Shown here: one piece after another, positions 33,780 to 62,080 of the stretch
Layout: each line of letters starts with the position of its first letter
Position numbering within the stretch: position 1 is the first letter of the stretch
Assembly: GCA_002840435.1 (NCBI GenBank)
Contig: PHAT01000007.1
Coordinates: 62,001-126,000 of the forward strand
Source of the DNA: Deltaproteobacteria bacterium HGW-Deltaproteobacteria-6
Lineage (GTDB): Bacteria > Desulfobacterota > Syntrophia > Syntrophales > Smithellaceae
Direction of reading: 5' to 3'
DNA length: 64,000 bases
Position numbers and translations under genes: made by a program
Notes under the pieces: generated by a model
Database searches by the model: none
The model's input: only the letters and a program-made list of their open reading frames with translations
What the model was told of the DNA's origin: nothing

Positions 33780-34760
33780 TTGGCATCCATGCAGCAGCGT
33801 AAAGAACGTGTGGCGATGTTGTCGGTCGCATCTAACTCCATCCTGGTGATCTTCAAAGTTATTGTCGGCACGCTGATCGGATCGGTTTCTATTATTTCCG
33901 AGGCGATTCATTCGGGTATGGACTTACTGGCGGCGATCATTGCCATGTTCTCCGTAAAAAAATCACATATTCCCGCGGATGATGATCATCCTTTCGGCCA
34001 CGGCAAAGTCGAAAGCATTTCCGGCTTGACCGAAGCGGTTTTGATTTTTATTGCGGCCTTCTGGATTGTATTTGAGGCGCTCAAGAAACTGACCTCCGCG
34101 CAGGAAGTGGAATCGCCCGGCTGGGGTGTTGCCGTAATGTTTTTGTCCGCGGCCCTGAATTTTTTTGTATCCCGAAGGCTCTTTGCCGTCGGCAAAGAGG
34201 CCGACTCCATTGCCTTGCAGGCCGACGCCTGGCATTTGCGAACCGACGTTTATACCTCCATGGGCGTTATGGTCAGCCTGGGCATTATCTGGATCGGCCA
34301 TTTCTTTTTTGTCGATCCGCGGATTCACTGGCTGGATCCGGTGGCGGCGATATTCGTGGCGGTGTTTATATTGAAGGCGGCCTACGATTTAACCTCCCAG
34401 GCGCTCGCTGACCTGATGGATGTGAAGCTGCCTCCGGATGAAGAGGGGTGGATCGTTGACGTGATTACCGGCCATAAGTCCGATATTCACGGTTATCATC
34501 AATTAAGGACACGCAAAGCCGGTAATTTCCGTTTTATCGAATTTCATATCAAGGTTGATCCGCAGATGACGGTCGAATCTTCCCACGGTATTACCCGTGA
34601 ACTCAAACATGTTATTATGGATAAATTTCCTGCGACAACCGTTACGGTTCATGTCGAACCGTGTGACGGAGACTGTACTGAAATCTGCACGGCCGGCTGT
34701 CTGTTGCCGGAAGCGCGGAGGCTGCAAATATCGCTGACCGGCGGCGGATGCGCTCGGTAA
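33780..34760 (+). CDS. Cation diffusion facilitator metal exporter
   Basis: 326 residues, about six transmembrane helices. SEAIHSGMDL in TM2 and ALQADAWHLRTDVYTS in TM5 carry the metal-site His/Asp residues; HPFGHGKVE is the family loop. A cytoplasmic domain follows, and then an unusual cysteine-rich tail, CDGDCTEICTAGC, with four Cys in 13 residues, likely a metal-binding extension. Substrate could be Zn, Fe or Mn. TTG start is used because GGGAGGA lies eight bases upstream. It reads divergently from epmB. Confidence 0.92.
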   Translation: MASMQQRKERVAMLSVASNSILVIFKVIVGTLIGSVSIISEAIHSGMDLLAAIIAMFSVKKSHIPADDDHPFGHGKVESISGLTEAVLIFIAAFWIVFEALKKLTSAQEVESPGWGVAVMFLSAALNFFVSRRLFAVGKEADSIALQADAWHLRTDVYTSMGVMVSLGIIWIGHFFFVDPRIHWLDPVAAIFVAVFILKAAYDLTSQALADLMDVKLPPDEEGWIVDVITGHKSDIHGYHQLRTRKAGNFRFIEFHIKVDPQMTVESSHGITRELKHVIMDKFPATTVTVHVEPCDGDCTEICTAGCLLPEARRLQISLTGGGCAR

Positions 34761-34794: not shown

Positions 34795-35436
34795 GTGACG
34801 AAGAAATCAAATGGGCGGGCACGGTTTATTGTCTTGCCGGGGGCAGTCATTTTTCTGGCTGCACTGGTTATCTGTTGCAGTCCTCATCCCGGTTCCGGCC
34901 CCGGTGCCGGCCCCGGTGTCAGTGTTCCGCCGGTTGTTTTAACGGGTGTTTTCGTGGATGGTCCGGTTGGCGGAATAAACTACTCTACATCAACCATTAA
35001 AGGCGTAACCCGTGCCGATGGCGCCTTTGAATACCGGACTGGTGAAACCGTTACGTTTTCTATCGGCGCCCTGACCCTTGGCTGCACGAAAGGCAAGCCA
35101 AGGGTCACCCCGCTGGATATTGTGCCGGACGCGACCAATACTTTCGATCAGCGTGTGGTCAATATCTGTGTTGTTTTGCAGACACTGGACCAGGACGGCA
35201 ATGCCGATAACGGTATTCTGATTAATCAGCAAGTGGCTTCATTCGTTTCCAGGTATGGCCGGGAGATTAATTTCAATAAGCCGGTTCACGCCTTCTCTTT
35301 TGATGCCGGTTTTCGAAATGTCATGGCCGAGCTGAACAATATCGACGCATTCGGAACAACACCCCGGGCCGTGAAACCTCCGGCCCTGGCCCGGAAGCAT
35401 CTGGAAGCGTCGCTGGCAAATCTGAAAATAAATTAA
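34795..35436 (+). CDS. Lipoprotein with a VDGPVxG-type adhesin-like domain
   Basis: 213 residues. Residues 10-28 are hydrophobic and end in VICCSP, a likely lipidation site at Cys27 or Cys28. A short Gly/Pro repeat (PGSGPGAGPG) precedes GVFVDGPVGGINYSTSTIKG and ADGAFEYRTGETVTFSIGALTLG, a motif that recurs in surface and lipoproteins of deltaproteobacteria and related groups. GTG start with a G-rich ribosome-binding site. The kinase gene begins 12 bases later, so the two may form a sensor unit. Function unknown. Confidence 0.7.
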   Translation: MTKKSNGRARFIVLPGAVIFLAALVICCSPHPGSGPGAGPGVSVPPVVLTGVFVDGPVGGINYSTSTIKGVTRADGAFEYRTGETVTFSIGALTLGCTKGKPRVTPLDIVPDATNTFDQRVVNICVVLQTLDQDGNADNGILINQQVASFVSRYGREINFNKPVHAFSFDAGFRNVMAELNNIDAFGTTPRAVKPPALARKHLEASLANLKIN

Positions 35437-35448
35437 CACCGGACATCG

Positions 35449-38202
35449 ATGATCATGAAAAACGATAAAAAGACAAAGGGGCAGCTGATTGAAGAACTGG
35501 CGGCTCTTCGCTCTGAGCTCGAAAAACTCAAAGAGGAGGTGTGCAGCTTCCGGATGAGCGAAGAACGGTACCGGGACTTTGTGGAAAACGCCGCTGACGG
35601 TTGCGCGGAGTATGACCTTAAAGGACGCTGCACATTCTGCAACAAAGCGACTTACTCCCTGATAGGCAGCACCAGGGCGGAATACATACAGCGGCCCCAC
35701 CGTGACCGCTTTGCGACCGCGGAAGAAGCGGACAGAGTTCTGGCTGTCTTCAGGGAAATTTACCGGACAGGTATGACGGCCGATCTTATTGTGGTCGATA
35801 TGCTCTGCAAAGACGGATCCGTCAAGACGCTGGAATGCTCTATATCGCTGATCCGCGACGCTCAGGGAAATCCCGTCGGTTTCCGTAATATAGCCCGCGA
35901 CTTGACCGAACGGAAAAAAATGGAAGCCGAACGCGAACGGCACCGTACTTTCATCGATAACATCAGTGATGGCTGCTATGAGTTTGATTTGCAGGGTGAT
36001 ATCATTTTCTGCAATGAAGGTCTGCCCGCTATTTTCGGATATTCGCGGGATGAATTTTTGAAACTGGATCGCTTTCGGCGACATGTCAGCCGGGAATACG
36101 GCAAATACGTTTTTCGTTTATATGATGAAATGTACAGGAATAATATTCCCTCAAAAATACTGGAGTATAAGATATTACGCAGGGATGGGGAAATTCGTGA
36201 TTATGAGGCTTCGGTTTCACTGATCCGCGATCCGGCGGGTAAGGTCACCGGCTATCGCGGCATCGGCCGTGATATTACGGAACGTAAGAAAATAGAACAG
36301 GAGAAGGAACGCTATCGGGAATTTTTTGAAAATATTGAAGACGTCTGCGCCGAATATGATTTAAAAGGCAAATGTACCTTCTGTAATCAGGCGGCAGTCC
36401 GGGCTTTGGGCTATTCCCTGGAGGAGCTGCTTCACCTGAGCCATCATGAACGCTACCCCAACCGGGAAGAAGCGGACAAGATTTTCAACACGGTTCATGA
36501 AACCTATGTCAAAGCACTGCCTGTCAATGTGGTTGTGGCCAATATTTTATGCAAAGATGGAAAAATAAAAGCAATGGAATCTTCCCTGTCGCTGATTCGC
36601 GATGGAAGCGGCATGCCGACAGGCTTCCGCAGCATTGGCCGTGATGTGACCGAGCGCCTGAAAATAGAGCGGGAGAGGGAGCGTTATCGTGATTTTGTGG
36701 AAAGCATCGAAGATGCCTGTGCGGAGTTCGATCTGCGCGGCCGGTGTACGTTCTGCAACGAGGCGGCGCACCGGATGGTGAGGTATTCACGCAGAGAATA
36801 CATGCAGCTGCGGCATCATCAGCGCTATGCTTCACCGGAAGAAATCGAGCAGGTCTTTAAAACGTTTAACGGGATTTACCGGACCGGAATCCCCGCCAGA
36901 ATTTATACGGCCAGCCTTCTTTGCAAAGACGGCGGCACCAAGGCTGTGGAATCCATCGTGACGCTGATCCGTGATGCGAAAGGCAACCCCGTCGGTTTCC
37001 GCAATATCGGCCGGGATGTCACGATGCGGGAAAAAATGGAAGAAGAACAGGAACGCCTGCGCGAACAACTCAATCAGGCCAGGAAAATGGAAGCGATCGG
37101 CACACTGGCCGGCGGCGTCGCACATGATTTTAACAACCTGCTGATGGGGATTCAGGGTTATACGTCCCTGATGCTTCTGGATACCGATCCGCGACATTCC
37201 CATTATTCACAGCTCAAGGCCATTGAATCTCATGTCCGGAGCGGTGCGGATTTAACCCGACAGCTTCTGGGATACGCCCGTGGCGGGCGCTATGAGGTGA
37301 AGCCGGTTAATCTCAATAAGATTGTCGATAAATCCGCTGACATGTTCGGCCGCACCAAGAAAGAAATTGTTATGGAGCGGGATCTGGCGGAAGATTTGTG
37401 GATTGTGGACGCGGACCGTGGGCAAATGGGACAGGTATTGCTGAACCTTTTTGTTAACGCCTGGCATGCCATGCCCGGGGGCGGCGAAATTTACATCAAA
37501 ACGAGGAATGTGGTGCTGGAGAGGTCCCATGTCCGGAGCCTGGATATACAGCCGGGTCCTTATGTTAAACTGACCGTTAAGGATACGGGCGTGGGCATGG
37601 ATGAGATTACCAGAGAGAGGCTTTTCGAACCTTTTTTCACCACAAAGGAAATGGGTGTGGTGAGAGGAACCGGATTGGAACTGGCCTCTGTGTATGGCAT
37701 TATCAAAGGGCATAAGGGCGCCATCAATGTTCAGAGCGAAAAAGGAAAAGGGGCAACCTTCAATATCTATCTGCCCGCTTCCTTTAAAGACGTCGTCCGG
37801 CAGGACGAACCCCAAAAAGCAACTTTGCAGGGCCGGGAAACCATTCTGCTTGTGGATGATGAAAAGAGCATCATGGATGTTGTCGGTGAAATGATCAAGG
37901 GGTTAGGTTACCGTTTGATGACGGCTGAGAACGGGGAAAATGCCGTGGATGTCTACCGGGCCAATCCGGGTCGCATCGATCTGGTGATCATGGATATGAT
38001 TATGCCGGGATTGGGCGGCGGAGCGGCTATTGATGCCATTCGGGCGGAAAATCCCGACGCCAGAATTATTCTCTGCAGCGGATACAGCCTCAACGGCGAG
38101 GCGCAGGATATCCTGAAACGGGGCGGCGTTATCAGTTTTATGCAAAAACCGTTTGAGCTGGCGGACCTTTCGCAAAAAATACGGGGTGTGCTGGATAAAT
38201 AA
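35449..38202 (+). CDS. Hybrid sensor histidine kinase with four PAS domains and a receiver
   Basis: 917 residues, no transmembrane segments, so cytoplasmic. A coiled coil (10-35) precedes four PAS domains (about 40-160, 165-285, 290-410, 413-535), a HisKA helix with His559 in GGVAHDFNN, a HATPase with NLFVNAWHAM and DTGVGM, and a receiver with Asp849. PAS 1, 3 and 4 share a pattern C-x8-C-x2-C plus a later LCKDG: Cys52/61/64/120, 300/309/312/368, 424/433/436/492; PAS2 keeps only Cys176 and Cys188. The pattern could hold a metal or Fe-S centre or sense redox. The G2 box reads GTGLELA, with Glu in place of the usual Gly. Follows a lipoprotein gene by 12 bases. Confidence 0.92.
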   Translation: MIMKNDKKTKGQLIEELAALRSELEKLKEEVCSFRMSEERYRDFVENAADGCAEYDLKGRCTFCNKATYSLIGSTRAEYIQRPHRDRFATAEEADRVLAVFREIYRTGMTADLIVVDMLCKDGSVKTLECSISLIRDAQGNPVGFRNIARDLTERKKMEAERERHRTFIDNISDGCYEFDLQGDIIFCNEGLPAIFGYSRDEFLKLDRFRRHVSREYGKYVFRLYDEMYRNNIPSKILEYKILRRDGEIRDYEASVSLIRDPAGKVTGYRGIGRDITERKKIEQEKERYREFFENIEDVCAEYDLKGKCTFCNQAAVRALGYSLEELLHLSHHERYPNREEADKIFNTVHETYVKALPVNVVVANILCKDGKIKAMESSLSLIRDGSGMPTGFRSIGRDVTERLKIERERERYRDFVESIEDACAEFDLRGRCTFCNEAAHRMVRYSRREYMQLRHHQRYASPEEIEQVFKTFNGIYRTGIPARIYTASLLCKDGGTKAVESIVTLIRDAKGNPVGFRNIGRDVTMREKMEEEQERLREQLNQARKMEAIGTLAGGVAHDFNNLLMGIQGYTSLMLLDTDPRHSHYSQLKAIESHVRSGADLTRQLLGYARGGRYEVKPVNLNKIVDKSADMFGRTKKEIVMERDLAEDLWIVDADRGQMGQVLLNLFVNAWHAMPGGGEIYIKTRNVVLERSHVRSLDIQPGPYVKLTVKDTGVGMDEITRERLFEPFFTTKEMGVVRGTGLELASVYGIIKGHKGAINVQSEKGKGATFNIYLPASFKDVVRQDEPQKATLQGRETILLVDDEKSIMDVVGEMIKGLGYRLMTAENGENAVDVYRANPGRIDLVIMDMIMPGLGGGAAIDAIRAENPDARIILCSGYSLNGEAQDILKRGGVISFMQKPFELADLSQKIRGVLDK

Positions 38203-38294: not shown

Positions 38295-39251
38295 CTACTT
38301 TCCTTTAAAAAGATAGCGCTCAAAAAAGCGGTTATAGGCTGTCCAGTCGGACTCGGTATTGGCGGCGTCGGCGGCCACAAAGCTTTGAAATGCATTGAGC
38401 TTGGCGTCAAGATCGTCCATGAAATGAATGACCAGCGCTTCCATGGTTTTCGGGCGTTTGGGCGAACCGTATTCAAATTCGCCGTGATGGCTTAAAATGA
38501 TATGCCGCAATTCGAGCGCGAGCTGCGGCGGAAAATCGGCGATGGCTTCCATTTTTTTGTTGATCATTTCCACGCCCATTACCAGATGACCGATCATCCG
38601 GCCTTCATCACTGTAGGCAATCAGGCCGTCATAGGAGAATTCGTAAATTTTGCCGATGTCGTGCAGCATCCCGCCGGCAATCAGCAGGTCCCTGTTTAAT
38701 TGCGGATAATGCCGGGCTGCGTGGTCCAGCAGGCGCACCACGGAAAGCGTGTGCTCCAGCAGGCCCCCCAGATAAATGTGATGAAAGCCTTTGGCCGCCG
38801 GCGCCCGCTGAAAAAGTTCAGCCGTTTTTTCGTCATGAAAAAAAGCGGTGAGAAGATTTTTTAACGGTTCGGATGAAATGGTGCCGATGTAAGCAAGGAT
38901 GTCCTGAAACATTGCCTCGGTGTTCATTTTGCTGACCGGCAGATAATCCGACGGATCCGTGTCTTCCGGCGCGCAGAGCTTAATGGTGACGATGGATATC
39001 TGAAGCGTATTGCGGTAACTCTGCGCCCGTCCTTCGATAAAAATAATGTCGCCTTTTTTAAAGACGCGATCCCATTCTGCGGCGTTATCCCAGACCTTGC
39101 CGTCCGTTTCGCCCGTTTTGTCCTTGAGGCGGACGTTCAAATAGGCCGACCCTTTCTGGGAGAAGGCCATGCTTTTTTCCGCGACTAAAAATGAAGAAGC
39201 GATTTTATCGCCGGGCTTGATGTCCTGAAGATAGATTTCTTTGGTTTTCAA
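38295..39251 (-). CDS. YhaM-like 3'-5' exoribonuclease, OB-fold plus HD domain
   Basis: 318 residues. An N-terminal OB-fold nucleic-acid-binding domain (about 10-95: LNVRLKDKTGETDGKVWD) is joined to an HD metal-hydrolase domain with HHIYLGGLLEHTLSV and GGMLHDIGK; the later HIILSHHGEFEYGSPK adds ligands. This is the architecture of Bacillus YhaM, which degrades RNA or ssDNA from the 3' end. Its role in this organism is not known. It reads convergently with the kinase gene. Confidence 0.85.
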   Translation of the reverse strand: MKTKEIYLQDIKPGDKIASSFLVAEKSMAFSQKGSAYLNVRLKDKTGETDGKVWDNAAEWDRVFKKGDIIFIEGRAQSYRNTLQISIVTIKLCAPEDTDPSDYLPVSKMNTEAMFQDILAYIGTISSEPLKNLLTAFFHDEKTAELFQRAPAAKGFHHIYLGGLLEHTLSVVRLLDHAARHYPQLNRDLLIAGGMLHDIGKIYEFSYDGLIAYSDEGRMIGHLVMGVEMINKKMEAIADFPPQLALELRHIILSHHGEFEYGSPKRPKTMEALVIHFMDDLDAKLNAFQSFVAADAANTESDWTAYNRFFERYLFKGK

Positions 39252-60373: not shown

Positions 60374-62080
60374 ATGTCCATGAACTGGAAACAGAAAAAA
60401 AAACACGAAGCCCTTTTGGCCCGTGAACAGGGTTTTGTAAAAAAAGTCTGGGGAACCTGCCATACGGTATGCCTGGCCTATCCGAATGTTTACCGGATCG
60501 GCATGGCCAACCTCGGGTTCCAGACGGTTTATAAAATATTTAATGAGACCCCTTCCTTTCTTTGTGAAAGAGTGTTTCTGCCCGTGTCCGGTGACGACGC
60601 TGAATTCGTCACCGGCGCGGCGGAAACAGTTAGTCTGGAAAACCGCAAACCGGTCCGCGATTTTGATATCCTGGCTTTTTCCGTCTCCTTTGAAAATGAT
60701 TACCCGTCCATCCTGAAAATGATGGATTTGAGCGGCATTCCGCTCAAGGCGAAAGACCGCGTAAGTCAGCATCCGCTGGTGATCGGCGGCGGCATCGCGC
60801 TCACGCTGAACCCCGAGCCGCTGGCTGATTTTTTTGATATATTTATTCTGGGCGAAGCAGAAGATGTTCTGCCTCGGTTCGCGCGGGTGTATGCGGATGC
60901 CATAAGCCGCGGGCTTGACCGCCACGCCCTGCTCACCTTGCTGCAAAAACAAATACCCGGCATTTATGTTCCTTCGCTCTACGCGGTGCGTTATTTCTCC
61001 GACGGGAAAATTCAGGATATGACGCCGCTTGCAGAAGGCTTACCCGCGAGAATTAAGATTTCTCCCGTTAAAAATATTGATGCTTTCTGCACAACTGAAG
61101 TGGTCAGCAGCATGGATTCGGAAATGGCGGATATGTTTCTGGTCGAGGTTAATCGGGGCTGTCCGCACCTCTGCCGGTTTTGCGCGGCAGGCTTTGTTTA
61201 CGCGCCGCCGCGTTTCCGCGGCTATGAAGAAATTATTTCGGCTATTGACTGCGGTTTAATGGTGAAAAAGAAAATAGGCCTGGTCGGCACGGCGGTTTCC
61301 GATCATCCCGATCTGGTGAAGATCTGTCAATACATTGTCGATCACGATGCCGTGACCGGCATTGGGTCTCTGCGTCTGGACCGGATGGATGAAAAGATCG
61401 TGGACGTTCTTAAGGCGGGCGGCATTGAAACGGTCGCGCTTGCGCCGGAAGCGGGAAGCCAGCGGCTGCGAGATCTGCTGCGTAAAGGGATCACCGTGGA
61501 CGATATTTTAAACGCCGCCCGGCTGCTGATTGAAAAGGAAATATCCAATCTGCGTTTGTACTTTATGGTAGGCCTGCCGACAGAAGAAGATGAAGATATT
61601 GACGCCATCATTGACCTTGCCAAAAAAATTCAGCACACGGCGCTTTGCCACACGGAAGGGAAACGGAAATTCCGGCGCATTACGCTCAGCATCAATCAGT
61701 TCATTCCCAAACCCCGGACACCGCTGCAATGGTGCGGCCTTGCGGATGTTCGGGACGTCGGCAAAAAAATAAAAAAGATCACGCAGGCGTTTCGTCAGGA
61801 CAAGCAGATCCATGTCATTGCCGACGTGCCCAAGTGGAACTACGTGCAGGCGCTCCTGTCCCTGGGCGACCGGCGTGTCGGCGATATTTTGCTGAAGGTA
61901 CACCAACTGAATGGCAACTGGATGAAGGCGCTGAAAGCGATAAACATCAACCCCGACTTCTATGTCTACCGGCAGAAAGATTTAGATGAATTTCTTCCCT
62001 GGGATATGATCGAAGTCGGCGTGCCGAAAAAAGCACTGATCAAAGAATATCAAAAAGCATTGGAAAAGTCTGATCTGTAA
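60374..62080 (+). CDS. Radical SAM protein, TIGR03960-like
   Basis: 568 residues. The N-terminal part (AYPNVYRIGMANLGFQTVYKIFN) resembles the B12-binding-like domain of TIGR03960 proteins; the radical SAM motif is C-x3-C-x2-C in GCPHLCRFCAAGF near residue 262; a FMVGLPTEEDEDIDAI segment follows. Homologues often lie beside a DUF2344 protein and RNase G, but not here. Reaction unknown, probably RNA or tRNA related. GAGG is seven bases before ATG 60374; ATG 60380 is also in frame. Confidence 0.85.
   Translation: MSMNWKQKKKHEALLAREQGFVKKVWGTCHTVCLAYPNVYRIGMANLGFQTVYKIFNETPSFLCERVFLPVSGDDAEFVTGAAETVSLENRKPVRDFDILAFSVSFENDYPSILKMMDLSGIPLKAKDRVSQHPLVIGGGIALTLNPEPLADFFDIFILGEAEDVLPRFARVYADAISRGLDRHALLTLLQKQIPGIYVPSLYAVRYFSDGKIQDMTPLAEGLPARIKISPVKNIDAFCTTEVVSSMDSEMADMFLVEVNRGCPHLCRFCAAGFVYAPPRFRGYEEIISAIDCGLMVKKKIGLVGTAVSDHPDLVKICQYIVDHDAVTGIGSLRLDRMDEKIVDVLKAGGIETVALAPEAGSQRLRDLLRKGITVDDILNAARLLIEKEISNLRLYFMVGLPTEEDEDIDAIIDLAKKIQHTALCHTEGKRKFRRITLSINQFIPKPRTPLQWCGLADVRDVGKKIKKITQAFRQDKQIHVIADVPKWNYVQALLSLGDRRVGDILLKVHQLNGNWMKALKAININPDFYVYRQKDLDEFLPWDMIEVGVPKKALIKEYQKALEKSDL

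Follow-up and report, generated by a model that had tools for sequence, protein, structure and literature searches.

In the genome of Deltaproteobacteria bacterium HGW-Deltaproteobacteria-6 (assembly GCA_002840435.1), the gene at positions 35449–38202 on the plus strand of the window (that is, of the whole 64,000-nucleotide stretch analysed, positions 62,001 to 126,000 of contig PHAT01000007.1) is predicted to encode a soluble hybrid sensor histidine kinase of 917 amino acids, in which four PAS domains carry cysteines at recurring places. Our tentative reading, to which we give a probability of about 0.4, is that these domains are thiol-redox sensors arrayed in tandem, with a chemistry like that of ArcB, and not a series of domains that each hold one metal site. 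The wider point is that a PAS clade marked by a cysteine in strand A may fill some whole arrays.

The open reading frame starts with ATG, and Pfam matches place the PAS domains ahead of a HisKA domain (residues 551–612, positions 37099–37284, phospho-acceptor His559), a HATPase_c domain (residues 656–777, positions 37414–37779) and a REC receiver domain (residues 799–912, positions 37843–38184, conserved Asp849), which is the arrangement of a PAS hybrid histidine kinase. PAS1 spans residues 40–155 (positions 35566–35913), PAS2 residues 164–279 (35938–36285), PAS3 residues 288–403 (36310–36657) and PAS4 residues 412–527 (36682–37029), and the repeat period is exactly 124 residues across the four domains. 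His559 and Asp849 are invariant in an alignment of three sequences (A5). Because the kinase lacks a sufficiently hydrophobic stretch (no membrane-helix-like segment was found in it, the highest mean hydropathy over 19 residues being 1.52), it is probably a soluble protein. The ATP-binding G2 box in HATPase_c reads GTGLEL (positions 37666–37683, residues 740–745), where the ortholog described below has GTGLGL and another relative (L032) has GAGLGL; this deviation could impair the kinase or come from an assembly error.

We numbered the four cysteine places C1 to C4 by columns 13, 22, 25 and 81 of our PAS alignment (A1). PAS1 (cysteines 52, 61, 64 and 120, plus 130), PAS3 (300, 309, 312 and 368) and PAS4 (424, 433, 436 and 492) have cysteine at all four places, whereas PAS2 has it at columns 13 and 25 only (176 and 188) and carries I185 and R244 in place of the others. 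In terms of motifs, C-x8-C-x2-C begins at residues 52, 300 and 424 and C-x11-C at residues 52, 176, 300 and 424, while the fourth cysteine lies within LCKDG (beginning at 119, 367 and 491; PAS2 has LRRDG at 243) and follows the first by 68 residues without exception. The pattern and its spacing are exactly as a sequence-only reading of this DNA had described them for PAS1, PAS3 and PAS4. Codons of the first cysteine occupy positions 35602–35604, 35974–35976, 36346–36348 and 36718–36720 in PAS1 to PAS4, and those of the third 35638–35640, 36010–36012, 36382–36384 and 36754–36756; in PAS1, PAS3 and PAS4 the second is encoded at 35629–35631, 36373–36375 and 36745–36747, and the fourth at 35806–35808, 36550–36552 and 36922–36924, all on the plus strand. 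Three further cysteines of the kinase (32, 130 and 876) fall outside the four-place pattern.

For comparison we used 297 non-redundant PAS domains taken from 186 sequences (the window and other loci, many of them overlapping), which were left after removal of rows with more than 15 gaps, of duplicates of at least 90% identity (410 rows remained) and of rows scoring below 40 bits. The sample mixes loci found with a cysteine-rich profile (A3) and loci found with a neutral query, and 40 stretches were hand-picked from match lists; frequencies within it are therefore not population estimates. At the cysteine rate of these related domains (0.94%), about 5 cysteines would be expected in residues 1–535 of the kinase, which hold 16 of its 17 (binomial P = 6.5 × 10−5, for tandem copies that are not independent); residues 536–917 hold one. 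Compared in pairs, PAS1, PAS3 and PAS4 have the same residue at 56, 63 and 62 of 116 positions, which is about half, and 45 of the 116 columns are identical in all three, with all four cysteine columns included (P = 0.021 for four given columns). Synonymous codon changes are present in 33 of these 45 columns and absent from 12, and three of the four cysteine columns belong to the 33; pairwise ratios of nonsynonymous to synonymous divergence (dN/dS) among the three copies are 0.08–0.21, with dS above 1 and saturated. The low dN/dS, the codon changes and the saturated dS together indicate that the PAS copies are old and under purifying selection, and from these comparisons we conclude that the cysteines are maintained by selection at the level of the protein, not by recent copying of DNA. 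The regular repetition of cysteines that had first drawn attention to the gene is, on the enrichment, the identical columns and the dN/dS values, real and beyond chance.

Structural models show where in the PAS fold the cysteines fall. An AlphaFold model of PAS4 alone, made from 30 aligned sequences, had a mean predicted local distance difference test score (pLDDT) of 94.8, with strands A, B, G, H and I at model residues 26–31, 36–39, 86–94, 100–111 and 117–126; its cysteines (model residues 27, 36, 39 and 95) place C424 where strand A starts, C433 and C436 at opposite ends of the short strand B, and C492 in the turn after strand G. The full-length model (pLDDT 64.9, about 80 in the PAS parts; predicted template modelling score 0.29) was used for secondary structure only. 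In it, residues 52, 176, 300 and 424 are second in strand A, residues 61, 309 and 433 first in strand B, residues 64, 188, 312 and 436 last in strand B, and residues 120, 368 and 492 come right after strand G, while single helices (residues 153–170, 277–294 and 401–418) connect successive PAS domains. The usual order of strands in a PAS sheet is B-A-I-H-G, and side chains alternate along each strand. On that topology, the side chains at columns 13 and 25 should stand next to each other on adjacent strands, on the outer side of the sheet, C433 and C436 should lie on opposite faces, and column 22 is expected to point toward the pocket, with column 81 about three strands off. These strand places and the PAS topology therefore exclude, as far as the models hold, a single site that gathers the four cysteines of a domain, and leave room for a pair formed by columns 13 and 25. 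Foldseek and VIA-align returned ordinary PAS folds, namely the flavin adenine dinucleotide (FAD) PAS domain of NifL, LOV domains and CPS_1291 (Z 15.8, root-mean-square deviation 1.8, 118 residues aligned), and a profile search of solved structures gave ordinary PAS domains as well (MmoS, CPS_1291 and LOV); none of the five alignments shown has a matching cysteine in these columns.

Signatures of Fe-S clusters, c-type haem, flavin/LOV and haem, the motifs being taken partly from general knowledge, were tried and none was found in the kinase. The cluster motif of NreB is CX2CX11CX2C; neither it nor CXXCH, the motif for c-type haem, has a match in the kinase protein. The photoactive cysteine of LOV domains sits in the motif NCRF, which is likewise without a match in the kinase, and PAS1, PAS3 and PAS4 have no further cysteine between their third and fourth. 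In haem-binding PAS domains the haem-binding His is located in helix F, and the predicted F helices of PAS1, PAS2 and PAS4 contain no His, H350 of PAS3 being the only one. FAD-binding PAS domains have a conserved Trp in helix F, and haem-binding PAS domains a conserved His, according to the excerpted text of PMC10468136; there is no Trp in residues 1–535 of the kinase.

The likeness to a known redox sensor rests on column 25. ArcB of E. coli, like the kinase here, has a cytosolic PAS domain before a hybrid kinase, and its Cys180 aligns with column 25, directly before a conserved Asn (26.8 bits); column 25 is Cys in all four PAS domains. The disulfide by which ArcB is inactivated depends critically on Cys180, according to the published excerpt. 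The architectures differ, in that ArcB has one PAS domain, transmembrane helices, Cys241 and an HPt domain (PMC8534201, in excerpt), whereas the kinase here has four PAS domains and no membrane-like segment, and no HPt domain is among its Pfam matches. It did not reach the cut-off of the NCBIfam ArcB equivalog (155.2 bits against 838) and fell far short of that of the CckA equivalog (321.8 bits against 1000); CckA-like hybrid kinases have the same order of core and receiver but a different sensor. A plasmid search with ArcB gave no useful match. On these comparisons the kinase is best read as ArcB-like in its chemistry and not as a member of the ArcB family.

Other kinases resemble it in part. 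PAS cysteines affect the response of the E. coli hybrid kinase EvgS to aeration, but the residues concerned, C671 and C683, belong to strands H and I in a homology model (PMC8174306, in excerpt), and EvgS has no Cys between residues 12 and 663 and thus none in strands A or B; although its pair has the same spacing of 12, we rejected it as a precedent for C-x11-C because of those strands. TodS was also rejected as a PAS redox precedent, since the excerpted account puts its redox cysteine, C320, in the catalytic domain and not in a PAS domain. Cys607 of BvgS borders the cavity, again according to a published excerpt. The earlier remark that no named PAS family is known to have this four-cysteine pattern met no contradiction in the excerpts of open-licence literature that we covered.

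One clear ortholog was found, in a Syntrophaceae metagenome-assembled genome (contig JAHDKI010000008; our locus L031, whose positions coincide with those of G043:C23). It has the same neighbours on either side, its kinase core is 65% identical, and its two PAS domains read CLCR and CCCC at columns 13, 22, 25 and 81, such that columns 13 and 25 are Cys in six of six PAS domains of the two proteins. A pattern-based scan of the genome contigs yielded 32 loci, of which L031 alone has at least two of the four cysteines. PAS4 has matches at E = 1 × 10−27 in 5 of 51 family genomes, and the neutral query at E = 1 × 10−20 in 120 of 155 order genomes. Among the 297 PAS domains, 44 have Cys at column 13, 24 at column 25, 7 at column 22 and 13 at column 81; columns 13 and 25 are both Cys in 14, column 13 alone of that pair in 30, and all four columns in 4, which belong only to the kinase gene and its ortholog. 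Cys13 occurs at least once in 21 sampled proteins. Nineteen of these have two or more PAS domains, and in 8 of the 19 every PAS domain has it: the gene, its ortholog, L163 (5/5), L160 (4/4) and L150, L152, L158 and L161 (2/2 each, L161 being scored on the two domains that show column 13). The six last named, with a Cys at the start of strand A in every PAS domain seen, may represent a separate PAS clade. Pfam matches in ten relatives include HATPase_c and a receiver in six (L158, L150, L152, L163, L164 and L031) and lack that combination in L160, L162, L149 and L157, of which L160 and L162 reach contig ends.

To reconstruct the history of the cysteines we used a FastTree tree of masked columns, from which the four cysteine columns had been removed, with a midpoint root and Fitch parsimony. 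The tree contains a clade of 44 domains, 40 of which (91%) have Cys13 (support 0.79), and on this phylogeny C1 marks an older PAS clade. Along the lineage of the gene, parsimony has column 25 gained first, then column 22, then column 81; over the whole tree there are 11 gains of column 25, 3 of column 22 and 5 of column 81, single gains occurring elsewhere too. The first PAS domain of the ortholog pairs with PAS2 and the second with PAS4, while PAS1 and PAS3 pair with each other. Given the pairing of PAS2, columns 22 and 81 seem never to have been present in it, and PAS2 probably never had these cysteines rather than losing them. The sequence-only reading was therefore right that PAS2 lacks two of the four, and probably mistaken in calling this a loss.

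Building on the anatomy, conservation, strand places, Cys180 alignment and stepwise parsimony history established here, we infer side-chain faces, a dimer location, a redox chemistry and an effect on the kinase that would combine as follows. Input would be received by four stacked PAS domains, joined by single-helix linkers at a constant period of 124 residues, whose cysteines would act as thiol redox switches and would not make up a metal site in each domain. Columns 13 and 25 would be next to each other on the outer sheet surface, where PAS dimers frequently pack, and their oxidation, whether to an intra- or interchain disulfide or through modification by quinone or sulfide, would alter how the helical spine packs and thereby act on the kinase, as Cys180 does in ArcB. 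The extra cysteines of PAS1, PAS3 and PAS4 (column 22 expected to face the pocket, column 81 to be on the exposed G-H turn) are later additions that would raise sensitivity. The redox sensor array that had been proposed for this gene is plausible, in view of the alignment of column 25 with Cys180 and of the presence of Cys13 in all PAS domains of several proteins. Anaerobes often carry multi-PAS kinases, and the signal is known for few of them. Should a single strand-A cysteine indeed mark PAS domains of a redox-sensing clade, what many such arrays sense could be guessed from sequence, and the thiol switch of ArcB would extend from one membrane-anchored PAS domain to soluble stacks.

Several observations weigh against a thiol-redox array. 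The second redox cysteine of ArcB, Cys241 (column 88), is without a counterpart (PAS1 to PAS4 have T, D, A and A), and the ArcB AlphaFold dimer in the published excerpt separates the Cys180 pair by more than 25 angstroms. In 11 of the 19 multi-PAS proteins, Cys13 is present in only some PAS domains (3/4 in L149 and L162, 3/5 in L155 and L157, 2/3 in L164, and 1/2 to 1/6 in six others). Plain counting associates C13 with C25 (14/297, Fisher P = 2 × 10−7, in a sample drawn partly with a cysteine-rich profile), but their coupled evolution, strong by this count, vanishes on the masked-column tree, where 2 of the 11 C25 gains fall on C13 branches (0.168 of the tree length) and about 1.85 would be expected; an independent-pairs test had too few pairs. 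In another clade column 13 is Tyr in 182 of 190 domains, conserved as strongly as Cys13 (both clades having been chosen by an 80% cut), and conservation alone, given this and the lack of coupling, is therefore no proof of a thiol function. The kinase is, moreover, missing from the locus in eight sister genomes, and it is possible that these are plain structural cysteines.

That last thought underlies the explanation that comes closely behind the thiol-redox reading and is a serious competitor to it, namely that the cysteines serve neither redox chemistry nor metal binding but are small packing residues fixed in this lineage and multiplied by tandem duplication, in an array that senses something else or serves as a mechanical relay. 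The Tyr13 clade and the uncoupled gains are what such residues would leave behind, as is the occurrence within one chain of a PAS2 with just two cysteines; most of the 297 relatives have hydrophobic residues at columns 13, 22 and 25, and it is Tyr, Phe, Val or Arg that relatives hold at the cysteine columns. Column 81, however, is mostly polar (Arg 56%, Lys 12%) and lies in a turn, where Cys is no packing choice, and neither the enrichment of the sensor part in cysteine nor the retention of four cysteines in three copies, at dN/dS of 0.08–0.21 and with changed codons, fits residues of that kind well.

A metal or Fe-S site across a PAS dimer is unlikely by comparison. Here columns 13 and 25 from two chains would supply four thiolates per layer and up to four clusters or Zn sites in all, which would accord with their expected position as cross-strand neighbours on the outer face (a register read from PAS topology) and with their being the only Cys columns kept in all six domains, but C13 without C25, as in 30 of the 297 relatives, would be half a site. 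Two kinases offer precedents, although the NreB motif is absent from the kinase here: NreB of Staphylococcus is a cytosolic PAS kinase with a cysteine-held, oxygen-labile [4Fe-4S] cluster (PMC8534201 and PMC8774646, in excerpt), and Zn at the cytosolic PAS domain of S. aureus WalK regulates that kinase, the Zn ligands including H271 and Glu368 and the excerpt naming no cysteine ligand (PMC6624279). A long shot of the same order is that such four-thiolate layers follow one another up the spine like rungs, as interchain disulfides, Zn ions or small Fe-S clusters; the kinase would then be a redox sensor of graded response, derived from a Cys13 clade of PAS domains that has gone unrecognised in the phylum.

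Less probable still is a reading in which column 22, together with the conserved His45 and Arg48 of the group with both C13 and C25, lines a ligand pocket, where haem, quinone or sulfide would be bound by the cysteine or would modify it. It draws on His at column 45 in 9 of the 14 domains of that group (for example at positions 36814–36816), a residue outside the four commonest in the other two groups, at what we take to be the place of the LOV photoactive cysteine, and on column 22 presumably facing the pocket as in LOV domains. Against it, column 22 is Cys in just 7 of the 297 domains, and the Trp and a common F-helix His are wanting.

That PAS1, PAS3 and PAS4 each have their own four-cysteine metal or Fe-S site, as the sequence-only reading also suggested from four cysteines per domain at constant spacing, can hardly be sustained, and we rejected it: the places of the four in strand A, at either end of strand B and in the G-H turn are, by PAS topology, apart and on both faces, and do not support their meeting; parsimony has the cysteines acquired one by one; and the Fe-S motifs tried, C-x2-C-x11-C-x2-C among them, are absent, as is CXXCH.

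The kinase gene lies between a lipoprotein-like gene (positions 34795–35436, plus strand), which ends 12 bases upstream of it, and a convergent gene (38295–39251, minus strand) that we take to be YhaM-like. In the eight sister genomes these two genes are adjacent with no kinase between them. A midpoint-rooted tree made with the YhaM-like protein puts the genome of the ortholog outside those eight, and the kinase gene is therefore probably ancestral, lost several times and dispensable. The lipoprotein-like gene occurs in 14 of 51 family genomes, and within the genus it is present both where the kinase is and where it is not; at ten further loci it stands beside the YhaM-like gene without the kinase in 8, the other two (L206 and L207) having no YhaM-like match in the stretch fetched. 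We rejected the lipoprotein as a dedicated partner of the kinase on account of this occurrence without it. Also near the kinase is a gene for a cation diffusion facilitator (positions 33780–34760) with a cysteine-rich tail (CDGDCTEICTAGC), which has no match in L031. The lipoprotein, for which neither Pfam nor PHROGs gave a match, resembles part of the SslE/AcfD lipoproteins (NCBIfam E = 9 × 10−9, 33.7 bits against a cut-off of 800).

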